A stretch of 64,000 bases of DNA, taken from assembly GCA_913055695.1 (NCBI GenBank), contig CAJXKF010000003.1, forward strand, positions 124,001 to 188,000. The letters are read 5' to 3'. Both the position numbers and the translations under genes were made by a program. Position 1 is the first letter of the stretch; each line of letters opens with the position of its first letter. The notes under the pieces were generated by a model. That model made no database searches. It worked only from the letters and a program-made list of their open reading frames with translations, and was not told the origin of the DNA. Shown here piece after piece: positions 33,807 to 47,903 of this stretch. The stretch is from an uncultured Methylophaga sp. (GTDB lineage Bacteria; Pseudomonadota; Gammaproteobacteria; Nitrosococcales; Methylophagaceae).

Positions 33807-34877
33807 ATGAGCTTTACCAAGACCTATAGCCCGATAGCATTATCCTCGCTCGCTTTAAGTCTTCTCTCTCCCTCGCTATCGGCCCAGGAAGCTGAGCTAA
33901 GCGACCCTTTCCGTTACGATTTTTATCTGTCCCTGCGCATGCAGGCGGAATCGGTACATCCCGACAATGAAACCGCCATGAATGATTATCGTGGTCTGCG
34001 TGATGCCTTTTCACGCATCGGCGTTAATGCGGCCTACCGCTTCTCTGAAGATTACCGCCTCTTCGGTCAGTTGGAAGTGCCGTTCGATACCGCCAATTTC
34101 CGCTTCGGCGACCCTTATGATCAGGGTGGTGCCGGTCGTGATGACAGAGAAGATTTACGGGTCGCCCGTATCGGTTTGGAAAGCCCGATGGGGACGGTAG
34201 TCGCCGGTCAGCAGTGGATGCCTTACTACAACACCATCACTTATCCGGTAGATCAGTTCAGTACCTTTTACAGTGGTTTTGCCACCTATACCACCTTCCG
34301 CGTCAAGGAGACACTGAGTTACGTCAGCCCGACCATGAAAGGCTTCAGCTTTGGTGGTTCCTATTCTTCGGCAGCCGGTAATGAACGCTCTCCGTCACGG
34401 ATTGATGACCGCAGGATCCAGACCTTTGCCCGTTACAGTTATAACGGCACCGTACTGGCCATCGGTATGGATGATCGCGGCAATACGGATGGCTACAAGG
34501 ACCGTCTCTACGGCTTTTCAGCGGCCAAGCGCTTTAATAACTGGAGCGTGGTATTCAAATACGAAACCACGGATACCGACAATCCCAACAGTTTCTATGG
34601 CGACGGTGCCGAGGCCTTTAACCTCTATACCGAATACCGTCACGGCAAGAATACCTACAAAGCGATGATTGCCGATATCGAGTCCTACGGCGAGACCGTG
34701 CTGCATCTCGGCATCGATCATCAGTTCAGGGAAGATCTGATCCTGTTTGCCGAGTACTACCAGGAGCAGGAAACCGCCGCCTTAACCGGCAAACACGAGG
34801 GTCTGGCCGGCTTTAACAGCGGCATCAGCGGCGGCAAAGTCTTCGCCGCCGGTTTCCGCTATCACTTTGGTTTCTAA
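33807..34877 (+). CDS. Gram-negative porin
   Basis: A 356-residue outer-membrane beta-barrel. It has a signal peptide (ALSSLALSLLSPSLSAQE), alternating amphipathic strands, porin hallmarks (RIGLESPMGTVVAGQQWMPYYN; VKETLSYVSPTMKGFSFGGSY), and a C-terminal Phe (FRYHFGF) needed for barrel insertion. AGGAG lies upstream of the ATG. The stop overlaps that of the convergent betT by four bases. It may admit small polar solutes, though its selectivity cannot be read here. Confidence 0.88.
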   Translation: MSFTKTYSPIALSSLALSLLSPSLSAQEAELSDPFRYDFYLSLRMQAESVHPDNETAMNDYRGLRDAFSRIGVNAAYRFSEDYRLFGQLEVPFDTANFRFGDPYDQGGAGRDDREDLRVARIGLESPMGTVVAGQQWMPYYNTITYPVDQFSTFYSGFATYTTFRVKETLSYVSPTMKGFSFGGSYSSAAGNERSPSRIDDRRIQTFARYSYNGTVLAIGMDDRGNTDGYKDRLYGFSAAKRFNNWSVVFKYETTDTDNPNSFYGDGAEAFNLYTEYRHGKNTYKAMIADIESYGETVLHLGIDHQFREDLILFAEYYQEQETAALTGKHEGLAGFNSGISGGKVFAAGFRYHFGF

Positions 34878-36937
34878 TGTTTCTCGAGATCAGAGGCTAG
34901 GGATTCGCCGTTGAGCATATCGTCATGTTCCTGCATCTTCCACGGCAGAATGCCGGGGGAGATATGCAGGAAGTGCAGATATTTCTCAAACTGGTGCAGG
35001 ATATCCTCAATGATTTCCTCTTCCTCGTAGCCATAGATGTTGTATTGCTGACCACCCCGGCGCAGGAAGACTTCAGCGCGGTAATAGCGCTCATCCCCGT
35101 CAGGGTCTCTGGGCCGCTCGGGGTAGGCAAAACTCGGCCGTGCATAGGCCCGCATACGGATGTCATAAATGAAGTCGAGCTGGTCCTTCAGCACCACTTC
35201 GATATAGGCCCGGTGATGAGTTTCATCATGGGCCACGACCACCGGCCAGCCTTTTTCCTTGATGACTTCCTCAACATAATGCATCGCTGGATGCACGGTC
35301 TTGGTAATGAAGTCGGCGACTTCATCGTAGCCCGGATAATCGATTAAGCCTGACAGTCGCTGCCGCCACCCACGTTTACTGGCAGGCCCCGCCGACTGCA
35401 TATGGGCCTGCAGACTCACCTCACGATGGCCTTCAATAATCAGCGCCCGCCACATACCTATCGCTGCCAGCACCAGGATAATAGCAAAAGGCAGCGCACT
35501 GGTGATGCTCATCGTCTGCAAGGCGCCCAGACCACCGGCAATCAGCAAAGCGGCCGCCAGCACGCCCTCCAGTGAGGCCCAGAAAACGCGTTGCCAGATC
35601 GGTGTCACACTTGCCCCCCCGGAGGCCAGTGAGTCGATGACCAGCGAGCCTGAATCCGATGACGTCACAAAGAACGTCATGATCAGAATCACCGTGATAA
35701 ACGACACAATCGAAGTCAATGGCAGCTGTTCATACAGCTTGAACAGTGCAATCGCCGTATCCTGCTGCACTTCAGTAATTAGCGACTTATATCCCTCATT
35801 CATAATCAAATGCAGTGCGGTATCGCCGAAGATAGAGAACCACAGAAAAGTGAAAATGGTCGGCACCAGCAGCACACCAAACACAAACTGACGAATGGTC
35901 CGGCCACGGCTGATTTTGGCGATAAACAGACCTACAAACGGCGCCCAGGCGATGGTCCAGCCGAAGATAAACAGGGTCCAGTTACCGATCCAGTCGCTTC
36001 TGGAATAGGCCTGCAGGTTAAAGGTGCGCTCAACGATATTGTTCAGATAGCTGCCGGTGTTCTGCAGGAAGGCCTCCAGGATATTGACCGTAGGCCCTAC
36101 GATAAACACAAAAGTCATCAACACCACCGCCAGCAGCATGTTGAGTATCGACAGTCGTTTTACCCCTTTATCCATACCGGCCACAACCGAGAAAATCGCA
36201 AGGCCGGTAATAAAGGCGATGGTAATGACCTGCACCGTGGTGCTGACCGGAATCGATGACCACAGATAATTCATCCCGGCATTGATTTGTGCGACCGATA
36301 AACCCAGCGTGGTCGCGATACCGAATAAGGTGCCCAGAATCGCCACCACATCGACGGTATGGCCGATAGGCCCGTGGATCCGCTCCCCGATAATCGGATA
36401 CAAAGCAGAGCGCATCGACAGCGGCAGTCCATGACGGAAAGCGAAATAAGCCAGTAACAGGCCGGTCAGGCCATAGATACCCCAGATATGAAAGCCCCAG
36501 TGGAAAAAGGCAATCTGCATTGCCTGCTTGGCGGCATCAATCGTTTCAGGGGCGCCCTGCGGCGGCGTCGAGTAATGCAGTACCGGTTCAGCCACACCAA
36601 AGAACAACAGGGCAATGCCGTAACCGGCCGAAAACAGCATCGCGAACCAGGCAGGGAAACTGTATTGCGGCGCCGCATGATCAGGGCCCAGTTTGATTCG
36701 CCCCCAGGGCGAGACTGCCAGCGCCACAATAAACACCAGAAAAAACGCCACTGCCAGCATATAGAACCAGCCGAAATTCTGGGTGAGGTATGCGAGGGTC
36801 TGATCAAAGGCCCGACCGGCAAGCTCGGGATTACTGATGGTGCCTATCACCAACAGCAGAGTGACCACAACGGCAGGGAGAAATACAGGAATCAGAACAG
36901 TCGATTTGGCTGCTTTCGGCGATTCGGCAGTGGCCAT
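34874..36937 (-). CDS. betT: BetT-type choline/betaine BCCT transporter
   Basis: A 687-residue member of the betaine/choline/carnitine transporter family with 12 membrane helices. The substrate-site aromatic motif GWTIAWAPFVGLFIAKISRGRT and the long hydrophilic C-terminus (about residues 510-687) are typical of BetT, where the tail senses osmolarity. It uses the proton gradient (Na+ is also possible) to import choline for glycine betaine synthesis. betA and betB are not in the window. A ribosome site AAGGAA precedes the ATG. Confidence 0.88.
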   Translation of the reverse strand: MATAESPKAAKSTVLIPVFLPAVVVTLLLVIGTISNPELAGRAFDQTLAYLTQNFGWFYMLAVAFFLVFIVALAVSPWGRIKLGPDHAAPQYSFPAWFAMLFSAGYGIALLFFGVAEPVLHYSTPPQGAPETIDAAKQAMQIAFFHWGFHIWGIYGLTGLLLAYFAFRHGLPLSMRSALYPIIGERIHGPIGHTVDVVAILGTLFGIATTLGLSVAQINAGMNYLWSSIPVSTTVQVITIAFITGLAIFSVVAGMDKGVKRLSILNMLLAVVLMTFVFIVGPTVNILEAFLQNTGSYLNNIVERTFNLQAYSRSDWIGNWTLFIFGWTIAWAPFVGLFIAKISRGRTIRQFVFGVLLVPTIFTFLWFSIFGDTALHLIMNEGYKSLITEVQQDTAIALFKLYEQLPLTSIVSFITVILIMTFFVTSSDSGSLVIDSLASGGASVTPIWQRVFWASLEGVLAAALLIAGGLGALQTMSITSALPFAIILVLAAIGMWRALIIEGHREVSLQAHMQSAGPASKRGWRQRLSGLIDYPGYDEVADFITKTVHPAMHYVEEVIKEKGWPVVVAHDETHHRAYIEVVLKDQLDFIYDIRMRAYARPSFAYPERPRDPDGDERYYRAEVFLRRGGQQYNIYGYEEEEIIEDILHQFEKYLHFLHISPGILPWKMQEHDDMLNGESLASDLEKH

Positions 36938-37109: not shown

Positions 37110-39098
37110 TCAGACCCGGTTGGCACCCCAGCTTTTAATGATGCGTTGGGAGACCAGCTCCAGCACATCGAGCGGAACGGCTTCGGGCCTCCCTGGCTCC
37201 AAAGGGTCGAAATGAAAGATATAAAGTCGTGACGCAAACTGCTCAAAAGGCAGAGAGGCTTCGCCGGAACGCTCAGAATAACCGGCGGTGCTGACCTGAA
37301 TATCGTCTCCCCAGTGCTGACCGCTGTCATTGTTGGGGTTATAGAAATAAACCCGCATGACATTTTCCTGATCCAGCGCCACACGCAGGATCGTGATTGC
37401 ATGCCAGCCGATGAAGCGCATTGCACTGTCTGTAATCGCGACCCCGGCCGGCTGCGGATGAATCAGCGGCTGATTACCGTTATAGAAAGGATGATAGCTG
37501 GCGTAGAACTTCTTCAGAAAATCTTCCAGCTGATGCAGCTTTCCGGTGGCCACATCGACATTAATGGCAAAACCCCGGCCACACCACCAGCCATGAAACT
37601 CGGGATTAACCCAGCGATGCGGATCGCCTTCACGCTCAATGCAGCGCCTGCCCATCTCGGCATAAATACGATCCAGATGGGGTACCAGAATCAAAGACAC
37701 CGGGTCCAGATCCATCGGCAGTTCTTTGGCAATACCTGCCACGCTGTCCCGGGATGAAATCGCCTGCCCTTCAAAGTGCATGATGACCTCATCATCCCGT
37801 GCCGCACTAACTACCAGTTGCAGCAAATAGTCAGGATCACTATAAGCCCACATGGAAATGGCACGGGCTGACTGACAGGTCGGGTTGTTGCCCTGCCCCA
37901 CGCCCAGCGGCAGCCCCAGCACACACAAAACGCCTTCAAGCAGCCTTGCTTCAGGACCCGGTTCATCACCGAATAGCAGGCTTAAACGCTGGCTGGCAGC
38001 GGCTGATAACTTCAGCGACAACTGTCGCCACAATGAGGGGGCGACGGCAGGCTGATAAAGAATGCAGCGCTCCAGCATCAGTGACAGGCCATATATCGCC
38101 TGCGCTGATTGAGGATGAACCACCTTGTCGATGAGCGCTCGTACCAGGTCAATAAAAGTCAGCAGACAATCCCGGCCGGTCGATGACAAACCCAAAGCTT
38201 CAGAAAGTAAGTGGTCACTGTTATCGCAAACGAAGCGCAACAGAACCGCATGATAGGGAGAGACCAAGCCAGTGTCATGCATCGCGCGGGCAAAACCGGT
38301 GGCCTCATACTGCAAAGTGGGTGCATCCATAGTTTGCAGACGCTGCAGATAAATGTCCACACCCGGATCTTCCCTAGAAGCCTGAGTCGCACCGTAAAGA
38401 CTGCTGATCAGCCGATCAGCGCCATGTCCGCTCTGCCCCAGATCAATCTCCGGGTTTTGCTGACAAATCGCAATCTGGGTCACCATCTGCTTGATCTGAT
38501 CCACCTGAATGGGCCTTTGCTGCAAAATACGCCAGATCTCATCAATCAGCTGTTCGATAATATGCTCATAGCCGACACGCTGCGCCAGATACTGCAGCAG
38601 ATTACGACTAATTTGCGCCAGCTTTCCCTGGCTTTCGCGTTCCGCCTCAGTGGGCACCGAAAACAGCATTTGCAGGTTGACGGCAAGAATATGGGTCAGA
38701 TGATGGTGAGCCTGCTCAGCAGAAATGGCTTGATGCCGGTAAATACCATTAGCAACGGCAAGCAAACGCAAATCACTCAAAGCCTCAATGAGGACAATAT
38801 CGGCCTCAGGGCTTTTGAGCGCATGGACACTGAGAGAAGGCACCAGAATCTGCGGCTGGGCATAATCGGTGTTATTAAAAACACCCGCCCGCTCGATGCG
38901 CTCAATATAGCGTTCAAGCAGTGCGCAGCCGCCCTCTAACTGTATAATCCGCTTAGCCGTATCGTAAAGACGCCGTACTTTTGTTGACTTGGAAAAGCCA
39001 GGTGCCTCATCCAGTGCCGTGATCGCGTCTTCCAGCCTGGCCACCAGATGCGGTTGTGTCATCTCAATGCTGTTGGCTTGAGTAGCTGATTCAACCAA
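37110..39098 (-). CDS. 662-residue protein with possible papain-like Cys/His/Asn site, paired with ATP-grasp ligase
   Basis: I do not recognise a named family. Residues 1-390 are helical and repeat-like. The C-terminal third holds NPTCQSARAIS (Cys408), IGWHAITILRVAL (His566) and VYFYNPNNDSGQHWGD (Asn587-590). This Cys, then His before a hydrophobic strand, then Asn/Asp after an aromatic strand, is the order of papain-like and C58-type thiol peptidases. There is no signal peptide. It starts 28 bases after the ATP-grasp gene, so the two form one operon. It could cleave or transfer the peptide bond made or used by the ligase; a non-catalytic role remains possible. Confidence 0.55.
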   Translation of the reverse strand: MVESATQANSIEMTQPHLVARLEDAITALDEAPGFSKSTKVRRLYDTAKRIIQLEGGCALLERYIERIERAGVFNNTDYAQPQILVPSLSVHALKSPEADIVLIEALSDLRLLAVANGIYRHQAISAEQAHHHLTHILAVNLQMLFSVPTEAERESQGKLAQISRNLLQYLAQRVGYEHIIEQLIDEIWRILQQRPIQVDQIKQMVTQIAICQQNPEIDLGQSGHGADRLISSLYGATQASREDPGVDIYLQRLQTMDAPTLQYEATGFARAMHDTGLVSPYHAVLLRFVCDNSDHLLSEALGLSSTGRDCLLTFIDLVRALIDKVVHPQSAQAIYGLSLMLERCILYQPAVAPSLWRQLSLKLSAAASQRLSLLFGDEPGPEARLLEGVLCVLGLPLGVGQGNNPTCQSARAISMWAYSDPDYLLQLVVSAARDDEVIMHFEGQAISSRDSVAGIAKELPMDLDPVSLILVPHLDRIYAEMGRRCIEREGDPHRWVNPEFHGWWCGRGFAINVDVATGKLHQLEDFLKKFYASYHPFYNGNQPLIHPQPAGVAITDSAMRFIGWHAITILRVALDQENVMRVYFYNPNNDSGQHWGDDIQVSTAGYSERSGEASLPFEQFASRLYIFHFDPLEPGRPEAVPLDVLELVSQRIIKSWGANRV

Positions 39099-39126
39099 AC
39101 CGGTTCCTTATTGCACCGCTGGTGCT

Positions 39127-40368
39127 TTATACATAAAAGTCCAGAGACTCTTGATGTTTCAGTAAATCACGCATGGTTTCTGCGTCGCTGCCGAAAAAGT
39201 ATACCAAACCCCAGTGAGTGCCGAAGGCGGTACGCTTGGTCACGGTCTCTTCCAGTGGCGCGGTCAGTTCGTGGTAATCAAAATAGGGATGGTCTTCAGT
39301 CTCATCGGGGATTTCCAGCTTACTGACCACCCGGCGGCGAGGATAGACGCCGAAGCAACCCGCATGGCCTTTGGCATCGACAACCTCTTCAGGGAAGAAT
39401 GCCTCGATTTCCTCTTCGCTGGCTTTGGGATCGAAAGCCAGAATCAGTCCCTGGTAGGCGTTGAAGCCGTAAGCCTGTTCCAGCAACTCAAACACCTTGA
39501 AACCAGGTGGACGATAGGCAACTTCACCGAAGTACATTTCCCCATCGCTGGTGACAAAGTACTCAGGATGCACAAAGCCGAAATCGATATCAAAGGTTTT
39601 TATCAGCTTCTCAATCTGTGACTTGATTTGTGGTCGATATTGCTCCAGCTCCGGGGACGCCGGCACAAACACCGAGTAACCCAGCGTGACATACTCGGAA
39701 ATGTTGAGAAACTGTATCTTACCGTTATGGATCCAGGCTTCAACGGCGAATTCCCAGCCATCCAGATGTGACTCCATCAGTACCGGGAATTCTTCATCCG
39801 GAATCATATCGACTTCATCCGGTGTGCGTATAACCCTATGTCCCAGGCAACCGGCCTTATCAAAAGCCTTGAGATGAATAGGATCATTCGGATCACCATC
39901 GAGCTTGAGCAATGTCTGGTTTACCCTTTTGAGAAAACGGATGACATCGTCTTTATCATGGGCTTCTTCAAAAATCCCCACCCGGATACCACCGAGTTGT
40001 GCCCGGCGTTTCATCAACGCTTTATCGCGCAGCAACATCGATTGACCAAAGAGTCTGGGATTATCCAGCAGCACCGAGTTAATCGCCCCGGCCCACTCAA
40101 CGGTTTCCTCAAATAAGGGAATTGCCACATCCACTCCACGCTCTTTCAGGGTCTGCGCGATCTCCATGGAACGGTCATTAAGCCGCTCAAAATTCCACTT
40201 GATGTAAGGAATATTGTGCGTTTCACAATACTCCTCCGCCCAATCAGGCGCGACGACAACATAGCGTCGGTCGAATTTTTCTGCGGCTTCGACGGCGTTC
40301 AGACTCCAGCCTAAAAAGGCGACGTAACCCTTGTCGGGGTTTTTTGTTCTGCTTTTGACTTCAGACAT
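39127..40368 (-). CDS. ATP-grasp carboxylate-amine/peptide ligase
   Basis: A 413-residue ATP-grasp enzyme. It has a Rossmann-like pre-ATP-grasp part (GYVAFLGWSLNAVEAAEKFDRRYVVV), then DKALMKRRAQLGG, GWEFAVEAWIHNGKIQF and the metal-binding end HPEYFVTSDGEMYFGEVAYRPPG. The last motif, E-x-x-x-R, replaces the common E-x-N-x-R. This kind joins a carboxylate to an amine through an acyl-phosphate; the substrates are unknown. ATG 40368 has GGGAG upstream; 40407 would add 13 residues. It precedes the 662-residue gene in an operon and is not linked to purine or cell-wall genes. Confidence 0.82.
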   Translation of the reverse strand: MSEVKSRTKNPDKGYVAFLGWSLNAVEAAEKFDRRYVVVAPDWAEEYCETHNIPYIKWNFERLNDRSMEIAQTLKERGVDVAIPLFEETVEWAGAINSVLLDNPRLFGQSMLLRDKALMKRRAQLGGIRVGIFEEAHDKDDVIRFLKRVNQTLLKLDGDPNDPIHLKAFDKAGCLGHRVIRTPDEVDMIPDEEFPVLMESHLDGWEFAVEAWIHNGKIQFLNISEYVTLGYSVFVPASPELEQYRPQIKSQIEKLIKTFDIDFGFVHPEYFVTSDGEMYFGEVAYRPPGFKVFELLEQAYGFNAYQGLILAFDPKASEEEIEAFFPEEVVDAKGHAGCFGVYPRRRVVSKLEIPDETEDHPYFDYHELTAPLEETVTKRTAFGTHWGLVYFFGSDAETMRDLLKHQESLDFYV

Positions 40369-40566
40369 ACTTTCTCCCTCTGATTTACGGAAATTAGAGG
40401 CATGCACCAGACAGCGTTAATATGCATGACGATTAAGATTGAGCACTGACATACGGGTCACAAAGGCCCGGCTCCTTGCGAGCTTGGATGAGACGTGTTG
40501 TTACGTCGTGTCACTGAGATGACGCGCCAAACGGAGACGCGTCTTGTAGTTGAAAATGCTGGTACA

Positions 40567-42255: not shown

Positions 42256-42332
<77 letters not shown>

Positions 42333-42341
42333 TGGACTAGA

Positions 42342-44180
42342 TTAGCTTTCTGAGTCGAGGAAGCTTCTCAGTTGATCGGAGCGTGAAGGATGACGCAGCT
42401 TACGCAGCGCTTTGGCTTCTATCTGACGGATCCGCTCACGGGTGACGTCGAACTGTTTACCGACTTCTTCCAGCGTGTGGTCGGTGTTCATATCAATACC
42501 GAAACGCATACGCAGGACTTTAGCTTCTCTTTCGGTCAAACCGTTCAGCACGCCCTGAGTCGCTTCACGCAGACCTTCGATGATGGCTGAATCAGAAGGT
42601 GAAATGACGTTAACGTCTTCCACGAAATCACCCAGATGGGAGTCTTCATCATCACCGATCGGGGTTTCCATCGAGATGGGCTCTTTGGAGATTTTCAGTA
42701 CCTTACGGACTTTGTCTTCCGGCATATCAACGCGTTCTGCCAGTTCATCCGGCGTCGGTTCACGGCCCATTTCCTGCAACATCTGACGGGCCACACGATT
42801 CAGTTTGTTGATGGTCTCAATCATATGAACCGGAATACGGATGGTGCGGGCCTGGTCGGCAATTGAACGGGTAATCGCCTGACGAATCCACCATGTGGCA
42901 TAAGTCGAGAACTTGTAACCGCGCTGGTATTCGAACTTGTCGACCGCTTTCATCAGACCGATGTTGCCTTCCTGAATCAAATCCAGAAATTGCAGACCCC
43001 GGTTGGTGTATTTCTTGGCAATCGAGATAACCAGACGCAGGTTGGCTTCCACCATTTCTTTCTTGGCACGGCGGGCCTTGGCTTCGGCAATCGACATCTG
43101 ACGTGAGATTTCTTTGATTTCGGCGATAGAAATACCGCGACCGTCGGCGATCTCCGCCAATTTGCTTTGGGCGGCCTTGATTTCGTCGTGATGTTTCTTG
43201 ATTGTCGACGAGTAGTGTTTCTTGGCACGGATATGTTTTTCCGCCCAGTCGACATTGCTTTCATTGCCCTGGAATGAGTCGATAAAGTCACGGCGGTTCA
43301 TGCGCGCCTGTTCGACCACGATATCCATAATGATTTTTTCCTGCTTACGGATTTCGTCGACGGTCTCCGACATCAGATCATTAAGGATGACAAGCGTTTT
43401 CGGTGTCAGCTTAAATTCCATAAACAGGTTACTGGCCTGTTCACGGGCCGCTTCGGCGGCATCACCTTCGCTCTGGATGTAATTCTTGTGTGCTTCACGC
43501 AGCGCTTCGAAACGGGCGCGGGCTTCTTCCGGATCGATTTCACCGGAGTCATCGTCGTCGCTGACATTGTTGACGTTATCGTCATCATCGTCATCGTCGT
43601 CGGAGTCGACGTCTGAATCATCATCGACAGAATCGCTGACATCGTCATCCTGCTCTTCGACGACTTCCTCGGCAGAGGCAAAGCCTTTGATGACTTCATT
43701 CAGGCGCATTTCACCGGCTTCCACCATGTCATACATGGCCAGGAAGGAAGAAATACAGGCAGGATAGGTCGACAGCATCTGCAGGCTCTCGCGCAGACCG
43801 GCTTCGATACGTTTGGCGATAACAATCTCGCCTTCACGGGTCAGCAGTTCCACCGAACCCATTTCACGCATGTACATGCGGACCGGGTCGGTGGTACGGC
43901 CGAACTCACCATCTGAACTGGCTAATACTGCAGCCGCTTCTTCATCAGACACTTCATCATTGGAAGAGATGGCTTCAGCGAGGCGCTCCATCTCGTCGGT
44001 ATCCATGCCATCTTCGTGGACCATGATACCGAGGTCGCTGAACATGCTGACAATGTCTTCAACCTGATCAGCATCAACCAGGTCTTCTGGCAGGTGATCG
44101 TTAATCTCACCGTAAGTGAGGTAACCACGTTCTTTACCTAAGGCGATCAGTTCCTTAACGCGTGATTGTTGATCTTTCAT
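42342..44180 (-). CDS. rpoD: Primary sigma factor, sigma-70
   Basis: A 612-residue housekeeping sigma factor. Region 1.1 is at the N-terminus, region 1.2 around [21 protein letters not shown], a non-conserved insert with a long Asp-rich run at about 171-215, region 2 ([39 protein letters not shown] and the -10-reading [15 protein letters not shown]), region 3, and region 4.2 with helix-turn-helix [27 protein letters not shown]. It is the last protein gene of the macromolecular-synthesis cluster, 91 bases after dnaG. Confidence 0.97.
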
Positions 44181-44271
44181 GCGGCCCCTTTAACCCTCGA
44201 CGCTACTTGACGTGAACACTTCATTATACCGAAGCGACCAGTGCATTGCATCAAATTAAACTTAAAAACAT

Positions 44272-45990
44272 TCACTTATAGGACTTCACTTCAGCCTTTT
44301 CTGCTTCGGTGAGTTCACTGAACGGCTTGCTGGTCAGCTCATGAATTCGCTGTTGTCTGGCTTCTTTAATAAGACGAGAGACGATGCCCGTGAGTTCATG
44401 TTTGAGTGCATCCGCTGACAAGGTTAGCGGTTGCAGGGCAAGTTTCTGAAGATGCGCCCCGTTTTCCTTGTCGCGCCAGCGTTCCAGCAGGGCCGCAGTG
44501 GTTAAGTGGGGGTGTTGATGCAGGGTTTCAACCAGTTCGATAAAAATATTTATACCGGGCTGATTGACCTGGGCGAGTGCTTCAAGCTTATCGATTTCCC
44601 TTGCCAGAATCGGATATTGCAGCACCATGGTGATCGCCATCCGGATCGGCGTCATCGTTGCCGTGCTTGGCTTTCTGGTGGTTTTTCTGGCTGGCTGCGC
44701 CGGCTTTTCCAGATGCCGGTTCAGAGTCGCCATATTGGTTTTGGTAATTTCTGCCAGCCGCTGTTCCAGCATATCGCGGTAGACACCGGCCGGTACATGC
44801 TTAAGATAGGGCTTAGTCATCTCCACCAGTCGGGCACGACCATCCATCGAATTCACATCGACGCGGCTGCAGAGGGTTTCGAAAAAGAAATCAGAATAAT
44901 TCAGCGCCATTTCCACCCGGCGGTTGAAGGCTTCCGGTCCCTGATTTCTGACCAGGCTGTCCGGATCTTCACCTTCAGGTAGAAACATAAACTTCAATTG
45001 CTGATTACCGCCCAGCATGGGTAAGGCATTTTCTGCTGCGCGCCAGGCGGCATCGCGCCCTGCCCGATCACCATCAAAACAGAACACCACTTCCGGCGCG
45101 GTTCGTAATAGAACACGTAAGTGATCGGCTGTAGTCGAGGTGCCTAAGGTGGCGACGGCGTTGTTGATACCGAATTCTGCCAAGGCAATGACATCCATAT
45201 AACCTTCCACAATCAGAATGCGTTCCAGCCGGCGATTGGCTTTGCGCGCCTGATACAGACCATATAACTCGGTGCCTTTATGGAAGATTGGTGTTTCCGG
45301 CGAGTTCAGGTATTTGGGCGTGGAATCATCCATGACCCGGCCACCGAAACCAATCACCCGGCCGCGGCGGTCGCGAATGGGGAACATGATGCGATTGCGG
45401 AAACGATCGTAGGTGCGGCCCTTGTCGTTTTTAATCAAGAGGCCGCCATCCAGTAATTGCTTGGTCACCTGGGGATTACTGCCGAAGGTTTTGAGCACAT
45501 TGTCCCAGCCATCCGGCGCCATACCCAGACCGAAAGTTTCAATGGTCTTGGCAGAGAGGCCGCGCTGTTTCAGATAATCGACAAAAGGCTGTCGCTGTGG
45601 ATGATTGTGGAGCTGATGAACATAATAGCGCCCCACTTTATCCATCAGATCATAGAGATTCTGTTTGGCCGGTGATAAATTGGCCTGCTGGGTAGTCGGC
45701 ACAGTCATGCCCACCTGATCCGCCAGCTCCTGGATGGCTTCGGGGAAACTGAGCTGATCGTACTCCATCAAAAAGCCGATGGCCGTACCGTGGGCACCGC
45801 ATCCAAAGCAATGATAGAACTGCTTGTCAGGGCTGACTGTAAAGGAAGGTGTTTTTTCGTTATGGAAGGGGCAGCAGGCGTGCAGATTTTTGCCCGCTTT
45901 TTTGAGTGCTACCCGCGCATCGATAACATCAACGATATCGATGCGCGCGAGCAGTTCATCAATGAATTGTGTGGGGATCTGACCAGCCAT
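44272..45990 (-). CDS. dnaG: DNA primase
   Basis: A 572-residue primase that lays RNA primers for replication. The zinc-binding domain is at residues 38-65 (HACCPFHNEKTPSFTVSPDK...YHCFGCGAHG), the TOPRIM catalytic core follows (ILIVEGYMDVIAL, FCFDGDRAGRDAAWRA), and the C-terminal helicase-binding domain ends at about 570. The length fits the family. It lies between yqeY and rpoD in the usual gammaproteobacterial order. Confidence 0.96.
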   Translation of the reverse strand: MAGQIPTQFIDELLARIDIVDVIDARVALKKAGKNLHACCPFHNEKTPSFTVSPDKQFYHCFGCGAHGTAIGFLMEYDQLSFPEAIQELADQVGMTVPTTQQANLSPAKQNLYDLMDKVGRYYVHQLHNHPQRQPFVDYLKQRGLSAKTIETFGLGMAPDGWDNVLKTFGSNPQVTKQLLDGGLLIKNDKGRTYDRFRNRIMFPIRDRRGRVIGFGGRVMDDSTPKYLNSPETPIFHKGTELYGLYQARKANRRLERILIVEGYMDVIALAEFGINNAVATLGTSTTADHLRVLLRTAPEVVFCFDGDRAGRDAAWRAAENALPMLGGNQQLKFMFLPEGEDPDSLVRNQGPEAFNRRVEMALNYSDFFFETLCSRVDVNSMDGRARLVEMTKPYLKHVPAGVYRDMLEQRLAEITKTNMATLNRHLEKPAQPARKTTRKPSTATMTPIRMAITMVLQYPILAREIDKLEALAQVNQPGINIFIELVETLHQHPHLTTAALLERWRDKENGAHLQKLALQPLTLSADALKHELTGIVSRLIKEARQQRIHELTSKPFSELTEAEKAEVKSYK

Positions 45991-46060
45991 AAGCGCTATT
46001 ATGGCTGAAATTCAGTGGAAAGATTAATCCCGTGTTTGCGGACAACGCACAGCAAGGGAA

Positions 46061-46522
46061 TTACTGGTTCAGCGCTGCCTTGACTTTGCCACTGACCGCG
46101 CCCATGTCGGCACGACCCTGTAACTTGGGACGCAGCACATTCATCACTGCGCCCATATCTTTCACACTGCTGGCGCCGGTCTCCTGGATGGCGGCGTCGA
46201 CGGCTTGTGCGACTTCTTCATCGCTGAGTTGAGCCGGCATGAACTCTTCAATGATTTTCAGTTCAGCTTTTTCAATTGCCGCCAGGTCATAGCGACCGGC
46301 CTGCTCGTATTGATCCAGCGCTTCGCGGCGCTGCTTGGTCATTTTCGTGAGAATGACCACAATATCGTCATCAGACAGATCAACGCGATTGTCGACCTCT
46401 ACCTGCTTAATCGCTGCCGTGATCTGGCGCAGAACACTGAGGCGCTCTTTTTCTTTAGCGCGCATCGCGTCCTTGACGCTGTCCATGATGGTGACTTTCA
46501 GTGGGCTGGCTTCTGCAGGCAT
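46061..46522 (-). CDS. YqeY/GatB-domain protein
   Basis: A 153-residue YqeY-family protein related to the C-terminal domain of the GatB amidotransferase subunit (DAMRAKEKERLSVLRQITAAIKQVEVDN; KMTKQRREALDQYEQAGRYDLAAIEKAELKIIEEFMPAQLSDEEV; GAVMNVLRPKLQGRADMGAVSGKVKAAL). It is all helical and likely binds tRNA or ribosomes; its precise role is unknown. It sits between rpsU (21-base gap) and dnaG. An alternative start at the internal Met (MDSVKDAM) is possible. Confidence 0.9.
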   Translation of the reverse strand: MPAEASPLKVTIMDSVKDAMRAKEKERLSVLRQITAAIKQVEVDNRVDLSDDDIVVILTKMTKQRREALDQYEQAGRYDLAAIEKAELKIIEEFMPAQLSDEEVAQAVDAAIQETGASSVKDMGAVMNVLRPKLQGRADMGAVSGKVKAALNQ

Positions 46523-46543
46523 CGTCAGTGTTACCGGGTTCGA

Positions 46544-46759
46544 TTAGTAGAGGCGAACGCGGCTGGCGTTTTCGCGGGCCAGTTTCTTCTGGTGACGTTT
46601 AACTGCCGCTGCTGCAGCGCGTTTGCGGGCAGTAGTTGGTTTCTCGTATGCTTCACGGGCACGTGCTTCTGCAACGGTACCGGCTTTTTCACATGAGCGT
46701 TTGAAACGACGCAGTGCAACGTCAAATGGCTCGTTTTCTTTAACTCGTACTGATGGCAT
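46544..46759 (-). CDS. rpsU: 30S ribosomal protein S21
   Basis: A 71-residue basic S21 protein ([26 protein letters not shown], ending in an Arg/Lys-rich helix [18 protein letters not shown]). The length matches the family. It heads the rpsU-yqeY-dnaG-rpoD cluster and is divergent from tsaD, as in most gammaproteobacteria. Confidence 0.97.
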
Positions 46760-46895
46760 TAATTATTCCCTACTCAATTCATGTTTGGAAAACCTCCAAT
46801 TGTACGAAATATCAACAAGAAAGCAAACAGTTAAATCACTTTAATTTCAAAAAAGGCATAATAGTGTCTGTTCTCAAAATGAAAACGGATTAGCA

Positions 46896-47903
46896 ATGCG
46901 TGTTTTAGGCATCGAATCTTCCTGTGATGAAACCGGCGTCGCCCTTTACGACACTGATAAAGGGCTACTGGCCCATGCTTTATTCAGCCAGATCGACATG
47001 CACGCTGAGTACGGCGGCGTCGTGCCGGAACTGGCCTCACGGGATCACATCCGCAAAACCCTGCCTTTAATTGAAGAAGTACTGGAGCAGGCGGAGCTCA
47101 CACGGGACGATATTGATGCCGTTGCCTATACCTCTGGACCGGGTCTGGCCGGGGCCTTGCTGGTTGGCGCCGCTATCGGCCGCAGTATCGCCTGGGCGCT
47201 GGATAAGCCGGCACTGCCAATCAACCATATGGAAGGCCATTTGCTGTCACCGCTGCTGGAAGACCGCGCACCGGAATTTCCGTTTGTCTCCTTGCTGGTT
47301 TCGGGGGGGCATACTTTGCTGGTCGATGTGAAAGCAGTCGGTGAATATGAGCTGTTGGGCGAATCGATTGACGATGCGGTAGGTGAAGCCTTTGATAAGA
47401 CTGCCAAGCTGCTGGGCATGGATTATCCGGGCGGGCCATACCTTGCGGCCAAAGCCGAGCAGGGTAAACCGGATCGATATGAATTTCCGCGGCCGATGAC
47501 CAATCGCCCCGGTCTCGATTTCAGCTTCAGTGGCCTCAAAACCTTCGCCATGAATACCTGGCTCAACAGCGAGCAGCATGAACAGGACAAAGCCGATATT
47601 TCTCTGGCTTTCCAGACCGCGGTTGTCGATACGCTGACGATTAAGTGCAAGAGGGCGCTCAAGCAGACCGGCCATAAACGCCTGGTGGTGGCCGGCGGCG
47701 TTAGTGCTAATAAAGCCTTACGTGAAAAGCTGGATGCGATGCCCGGCGTTGAAGTGTTTTATCCACGACAGCAGTTCTGCAGTGATAATGGGGCGATGAT
47801 TGCCTTTGCCGGCGCGATTCGAAAACAGGCGATGCAGCTGCAGGACAAGCCGACTTTCAGTGTCAGACCACGCTGGCCGCTGGATGAATTAACCCCGCCT
47901 TAG
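46896..47903 (+). CDS. tsaD: tRNA threonylcarbamoyladenosine synthesis protein TsaD
   Basis: A 335-residue ASKHA-fold enzyme that, with TsaB and TsaE, transfers threonylcarbamoyl to A37 of tRNAs reading ANN codons. Start [19 protein letters not shown], metal ligands in [12 protein letters not shown], the nucleotide motif [11 protein letters not shown] and the C-terminal [19 protein letters not shown]. The stop overlaps the convergent plsY stop by four bases. Confidence 0.97.

Follow-up and report, generated by a model that had tools for sequence, protein, structure and literature searches.

Among described enzymes, the nearest working analogy for the gene pair analysed here is glutathionylspermidine synthetase/amidase, a single chain that unites an ATP-grasp amide ligase with a CHAP papain-like thiol amidase and acts on a polyamine conjugate. 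Amidoligase-peptidase neighbourhoods, in which an ATP-grasp ligase stands next to a thiol peptidase, were reportedly described by Iyer et al. in 2009. This study concerns a locus of two genes in a stretch of 64,000 nucleotides from an uncultured Methylophaga sp., a methylotroph of marine type (contig CAJXKF010000003.1 of assembly GCA_913055695.1, positions 124,001 to 188,000), hereafter the window. The locus (37110-40368, both genes on the minus strand) comprises the gene of an ATP-grasp ligase and, after a gap of 28 bases, that of a 662-residue protein of an unnamed family, here called BIG. The pair differs from glutathionylspermidine synthetase/amidase in consisting of two genes and not one chain, and membership of that family was rejected, neither protein having a CHAP or synthetase-family Pfam match at E≤1.

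The Rlo and Rim loci of Pseudomonas resemble the pair in joining an ATP-grasp protein with a peptidase, and the Rlo peptidases have a part in osmotic tolerance (PMC12239564). The peptidases of these loci are presented there as aspartic retropepsins, together with an inactive transglutaminase protein, whereas the enzyme encoded here is probably papain-like. Although the combination of an ATP-grasp ligase and a thiol peptidase is not new as a concept, the BIG family, its helical N-terminus, the constant pairing and the link to ectoine producers were not met among the best-ranked papers listed by literature searches, a scope that leaves most subscription journals outside. We propose that in halophiles the ligase and a thiol amidase (or transferase) make and remodel an amide between an amino acid and a diamine, an interpretation offered tentatively, with chances that we judge to be a little short of even.

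Pairing and distribution of the two genes

The ligase is present in all 33 BIG genomes tested. Among 369 genomes of the class, 12 carry BIG, and exactly these 12 carry the ligase (E≤4.4e-222), while four other genomes of the class gave generic ATP-grasp matches only (1e-13 to 1e-18). Both genes occur in the same 9 of 23 relatives from the same genus, and the ligase accompanies BIG in 9/9 further BIG genomes; three Halomonas genomes that lack the ligase at the BIG locus carry it elsewhere at 77-78% identity (3/3). No strong ligase match without BIG was found in the 369 class genomes or in 24 Methylophaga genomes. Homologues occurring without the ATP-grasp gene, which the preliminary description of this locus had named as evidence that would speak against it, were thus not seen at the level of genomes (33/33 have the ligase), although at some single loci BIG has no ligase next to it.

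Gene order was compared in the best 80 of 550 relatives (L011-L090) and in a more distant set. The ligase lies directly upstream of BIG on the same strand at 77 of the 80 loci, with gaps between the open reading frames (ORFs) of 0-94 bases (the ligase of L079 is cut off by the contig end). The distant set includes divergent (L149, L151, L155 and, with an ORF between, L153) and convergent (L112, L114) arrangements, as well as loci with BIG first (L110, L111) or the ligase first (L156, L157), and the genes stay close in these loci despite the changed order. Counting against a fixed partnership are the nine loci at which BIG has no adjacent ligase, six of them distant (L108, L109, L113, L150, L152, L154) and three among the 80 (L022, L030, L078); in each case the genome has the ligase elsewhere.

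No gene besides the ligase is constant near BIG at 91 loci, and the two genes form a stand-alone module of always-paired partners. Since both are always in the same genomes, the pair probably makes and remodels one molecule. The constant co-occurrence, together with 257 gap-free columns of the catalytic domain at 54-81% identity, indicates strong selection on the pair. The absence of further constant genes also bears on a graspetide-like system, in which the ligase would cross-link a ribosomal peptide encoded elsewhere and BIG would mature it. ATP-grasp enzymes are reported to cross-link peptides in graspetides (PMC8939145), but no constant ORF of at least 60 residues lies beside the pair at the 91 loci, nor of at least 80 residues in the distant set, shorter ORFs and remote precursors not having been sought, and the 28-base gap in the window is too small for a precursor; we consider such a system highly improbable.

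BIG itself matched no Pfam family at E≤1 and gave a single stray match in NCBIfam (0.086), in keeping with its earlier description as unrecognised. Pfam searches with 22 diverse members returned strays only (best E 0.011), with no family supported. A relatives search of genome contigs yielded 555 stretches fitting the pattern, of which 550 encode a BIG relative, and the whole-genome matches listed are 41-92% identical over nearly full length; conservation in this family is therefore far beyond chance. The best 80 of the 550 come from Methylophaga, Halomonas and its relatives, Chromohalobacter, Marinobacter, Alcanivorax, Marinimicrobium, Guyparkeria, Ectothiorhodospiraceae, Saccharospirillum and others, and identity among BIG relatives drops to about 40%. 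The distribution is rare and patchy, with BIG in 12/369 genomes of the class, 11/398 of the phylum and 10/24 of Methylophaga, the window's own genome counted. When a profile of the C-terminal domain was run against 299 phylum genomes, with at most 8 candidates scored per genome, full BIG copies reached E≤1.9e-139; after them came a single 34-residue fragment (6.9e-9), and no other match was better than 0.036, so that no family bridges to BIG. None of 150 pattern matches in viral contigs was a BIG relative. A plasmid system was rejected, BIG being found in 1 of 72,556 plasmid records, a 1.8-Mb Halomonas replicon. The Marinobacter genome G464 carries five full BIG copies and, on contig 10 near 1017443 (L184), a 34-residue remnant of a sixth, a trace of paralogue turnover.

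In the ORF scan of the window, the BIG gene spans 37110-39098 on the minus strand from a TTG start; an in-frame ATG also occurs at 39062, and matches among the best 80 of 550 relatives begin at residues 1-22. The ligase ORF opens with GTG at 40407 (426 residues), but since a plausible ribosome site (gagggagaaagtATG) precedes the ATG at 40368, this ATG is taken as the start, giving a protein of 413 residues (39127-40368, minus strand; residue numbers below follow the 426-residue ORF). Both ORFs lie where the preliminary description placed them, with the 28-base spacing, and the end that it gave, 40368, is the ligase ATG. ORFs on the opposite strand of both genes are irrelevant because the protein frame of both genes is conserved. 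Scores of a promoter and terminator scan around the locus fell within the range of shuffles, and the sole Rfam match around the locus was a tRNA gene.

Probable catalytic residues and fold of BIG

The C-terminal domain of BIG (residues 384-640; 37179-37949, minus strand) accounts for the 257 columns that are gap-free in 22 diverse members, and it is the better conserved part of the protein, the lowest pairwise identity being 46% as against 29% in the N-terminal part. Gln402, Cys408, His566 and Asn587 are each present in 105/105 aligned relatives, a set obtained from 129 ORF matches after identical and short ones were dropped, and Cys408 is the sole cysteine over the 98.5% conservation line of the alignment. 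Conservation of Cys408 and His566 in homologues, set earlier as a test of the papain-like assignment, thus proved complete. The four residues stand in papain order. Papain itself has Gln19 six residues ahead of Cys25, and the spacing of Gln402 and Cys408 is the same (QGNNPTC, 37875-37895), which by position would make them the oxyanion glutamine and the nucleophile. In the predicted secondary structure, Cys408 lies at a helix start, His566 (37401-37403, in WHAITI) at or just before a strand start, and Asn587 (37338-37340, in YFYNPNNDSGQHWG) directly after the next strand. Papain and cathepsins (C1), calpains (C2) and bleomycin hydrolase share with BIG the Gln six residues before the Cys, the His at a strand start and the Asn after the next strand, and it is to these types that the BIG structure matches belong; BIG differs from papain-like peptidases in its long helical N-terminus, in its ligase partner and in having no detected sequence relation to them.

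A strict papain-type pattern, composed after BIG had been seen, was found in 91/91 BIG proteins, in 0/787 other ORFs of at least 150 residues, in 2/20,000 domain shuffles and in 3/5 true C1 proteins. Structure searches used a second model, made from the last 280 residues with 72 close rows. In Foldseek, 48 of the top 50 rows were papain-like chains (cathepsin B, calpains, Pd_dinase and others), 5ysu and 5j3q being the two exceptions, and in VIA, which does no more than re-align the Foldseek matches, all 50 rows were papain-fold proteins (Z 4.3-5.6). Viral models in BFVD gave a less clear picture, the best E being 1.4e-3, with 3/50 rows named papain or cathepsin and the rest mostly unrelated.

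Several observations weigh against a papain-like fold. The C-terminal model is poor, with a mean predicted local distance difference test score (pLDDT) of 61.3 and a predicted template modelling score of 0.60, the strand region being better and the Cys region below 50, and in the full-length model most of the domain is below 50. The best Foldseek E value was 5.8e-3, with none ≤0.001, and a handful of proteins (calpain-3, cathepsin B, Pd_dinase) recur among its top 50 rows, while the best VIA Z of 5.6 is in a range described by the tool as common. An hhalign comparison of the BIG domain with a five-sequence C1 alignment was negative, its probability of 0.4 being similar to the 0.1-0.3 of the controls, and a looser Q-C-H-N pattern is common (33/787 ORFs, 1,643/20,000 shuffles). 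Searches of PDB sequences with BIG and BIG profiles found no match, and neither BIG nor its 22 diverse members matched a curated papain family such as PF00112 in Pfam. A papain-like fold is supported by modelling, not proven, and in our judgement it is very probable.

The preliminary description had spoken of a papain/C58-type thiol enzyme. Its papain half is supported by the residue order in all aligned relatives and by the papain-like structure matches, whereas the C58 half has to be given up. The triad of peptidase C58 is Cys-His-Asp; membership of that family (YopT/AvrPphB) was rejected, the third residue of BIG being Asn (105/105) and C58 not appearing among the Pfam matches at E≤1.

Alr0975 (2bu3), which forms an acyl-enzyme with glutathione, aligned with the BIG model in VIA (Z 4.6, 97 residues) and had no sequence match to BIG. 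We take 2bu3 to be phytochelatin-synthase-like with a papain fold, and we know of no ligase partner of Alr0975. Another VIA row, 9l5u_B, belongs to a papain-like toxin/immunity pair, of which the chain may be either half.

The N-terminal region (residues 1-383; 37950-39098, minus strand) is helical in the full-length model, in which helices run from residue 1 to about 395 with mostly good pLDDT, weaker at 190-240. It has no diagnostic fold match: the best VIA rows for the full-length model were mostly helical proteins without clear relation (Z≤6.3). No signal peptide was seen by eye in BIG, which is presumably cytosolic.

The ligase and the reactions proposed for the pair

The ligase matches PF13535 (E 9.8e-6) with 25.7 bits, just under the cut-off of 27, and its nearest PDB relatives by sequence are the L-amino-acid ligases 4wd3 and 3vot and PurK 3orq (E 0.006-0.0074); when 38 close ligase rows were combined into a profile, nothing in the PDB matched at E≤0.01. 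By alignment with these three structures, the ligase has the two metal-binding glutamates and the arginine of ATP-grasp enzymes (Glu282, Glu295, Arg299), all three conserved in at least 94 of 95 rows. Its metal-site end, GEVAYRPPG (residues 294-302; 39502-39528, minus strand), had been regarded as unusual. It pairs with GEIAMRIGG of 4wd3 and NEIAPRPHN of PurK, and because these are close parallels, it falls within the known range and is not unusual. The earlier assignment to ATP-grasp enzymes with clear family motifs was real, although weak in the libraries. The ligase beside a thiol enzyme envisaged in the preliminary description is now better put as a probable papain-like enzyme constantly paired with the ligase, with the C58 type and the odd metal site removed.

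The structures 4wd3, presumably RizA, and 3vot (BL00235; ATP-grasp_4) resemble the ligase in metal and phosphate residues, in the GE(I/V)AxR end and in chain length (413 and 425 residues). They are unlike it in that the match reaches an E of about 0.006 only and that the ligase here has a constant papain-like partner. The ligase probably forms amide bonds. A second ligase copy, 77% identical, lies at L147:8001-9377 in genome G402, which has one BIG; no BIG occurs within the fetched stretch.

From family membership and context we infer the chemistry, the substrate and the direction of the BIG reaction as follows. The ligase, of the L-amino-acid-ligase type, would use ATP to activate a carboxylate as an acyl-phosphate and couple it with an amine to form an amide. 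The C-terminal thiol enzyme of BIG would take the acyl part of the amide onto Cys408 and hand it on to water or another amine, in this way trimming or transferring the ligase product, while the N-terminal helical region would probably hold the substrate or a partner. The amine may be a polyamine, or a diamine or diamino acid such as diaminobutyrate from the ectoine pathway, and the setting suggested by context is life in salt.

The main rival to this scheme is reversible protein tagging, in which the ligase would attach an amino acid or a short tail to some protein and BIG, with its helical region holding that protein, would remove or transfer the addition, in the manner of RimK-type ligases and peptidases. 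The long helical N-terminus would suit a protein partner, yet the ligase is nearest by sequence to L-amino-acid ligases and PurK and not to RimK. BIG copies do outnumber ligase copies in the Marinobacter genome G464 (five full copies against two), whereas the informative genes next to the pair in relatives concern small molecules (the ectoine synthase gene ectC, HDAC-type and putrescine permease-like genes). A Pseudomonas ATP-grasp protein and the peptidases RloC and RloA act in osmotic stress, and RimK polyglutamylates RpsF (PMC12239564). On balance, we regard protein tagging as unlikely.

Neighbouring genes and the ectoine context

The preliminary description had found nothing nearby that would place the pair in a pathway, which holds for the window and less so for relatives, where HDAC-type genes adjoin the pair at five loci and ectC does so once. 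Ectoine synthase was found in 30/30 BIG genomes tested, from 14 genera, and in 0/10 BIG-lacking class genomes of other genera, controls that were unmatched for habitat or salinity. In one draft genome, G298, a 5.6-kb contig carries BIG, an HDAC-type protein, the ligase and ectC in line on one strand; the start of the HDAC-type gene overlaps the BIG stop as ATGA, and ectC, the single ectC match of that genome, begins 104 bases past the ligase. The G+C content of the four genes is 0.61-0.68, and the contig may be a chimera.

Other results tell against a tie to ectoine. BIG-lacking Methylophaga also have ectC (9/9 tested, 5 of the 14 such genomes, all <90% complete, having been left out), so that ectoine does not need the pair. 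No contig but this one, from a draft genome, carries the pair together with ectC. The ligase was absent at E≤1e-30 from 157 further genomes taken as relatives of G298, only one of those listed being in the same family. Co-occurrence of ectC and BIG may come from habitat alone, the pair then serving some other amide metabolism, an explanation compatible with a ligase and thiol enzyme acting on one amide. Such an explanation would account for ectC in Methylophaga that lack BIG and for the finding that just one of about 100 loci read for neighbours (80 + 11 + 9, some places twice) has ectC next to the pair, and the controls leave room for it in being unmatched for salinity; it fits less well with co-occurrence in 30/30 genomes of 14 genera and with the order BIG-HDAC-ligase-ectC in G298. 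We regard shared habitat as a real possibility, though one we would not favour outright, and the tie of the pair to ectoine producers as supported, not proven.

Of these roughly 100 loci, five have an HDAC-type protein adjoining BIG or the ligase, namely L111, L110, L107 and L155, which come from four different families, and L020; apart from the G298 copy itself, they are 45-49% identical to that copy, and PF00850 was confirmed for three of them. At a greater distance, L064, L080 and L087 contain weaker HDAC matches (32-33%). Bacterial HDAC-type proteins include acetylpolyamine deacylases. In the Marinobacter-like genome G527 (L154:5852-9896), a BIG paralogue starts 3 bases after matches to the putrescine permease proteins PotH and PotI, both just under curated cut-offs. 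At L152:7983-11532 (G562, of a Marinobacter-like family), the gene after BIG encodes a protein of GCS2 type (glutamate-cysteine ligase family 2) in place of the ATP-grasp ligase, as if the ligase type were exchangeable there.

Within the window, the pair is flanked by a mechanosensitive-channel-like gene (PF05552; 40601-42046, minus strand) on the ligase side and by a betaine/carnitine/choline transporter (BCCT) gene (34874-36937, minus strand) on the BIG side. A member of one mechanosensitive-channel cluster, of which one member was scanned, occurs a few genes downstream in 38/91 loci, a count inflated by shared ancestry. The neighbouring genes agree on amines and osmotic life and prove no substrate.

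A more specific version of the proposed amide metabolism would be a so far undescribed branch of compatible-solute metabolism. In it, halophiles that make ectoine would use the ligase and a new family of papain-like enzymes, amidases or acyl-transferases, joined in some lineages by a deacetylase of HDAC type, to conjugate and deconjugate a polyamine or diaminobutyrate, acetylated or not, as a store or osmolyte adjustable to salt. We consider this version rather doubtful; if the tie to ectoine or polyamines is true, well-studied ectoine producers would hold an unmapped branch of their best-known pathway. N-carbamoylglutamine amide, a solute of halophiles, was considered as the product and set aside, as nothing ties it to these genes.

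Two further observations concern gene surroundings. In genome G326 (L148:7998-10917), the ligase follows a match to L-piperidine-6-carboxylate dehydrogenase above cut-off, with BIG about 55 kb away. On the high-coordinate side of the locus, the window contains at 42259-47903 a tRNA gene, a sigma-70-like ORF recognised by eye, and genes matching DnaG primase and TsaD.

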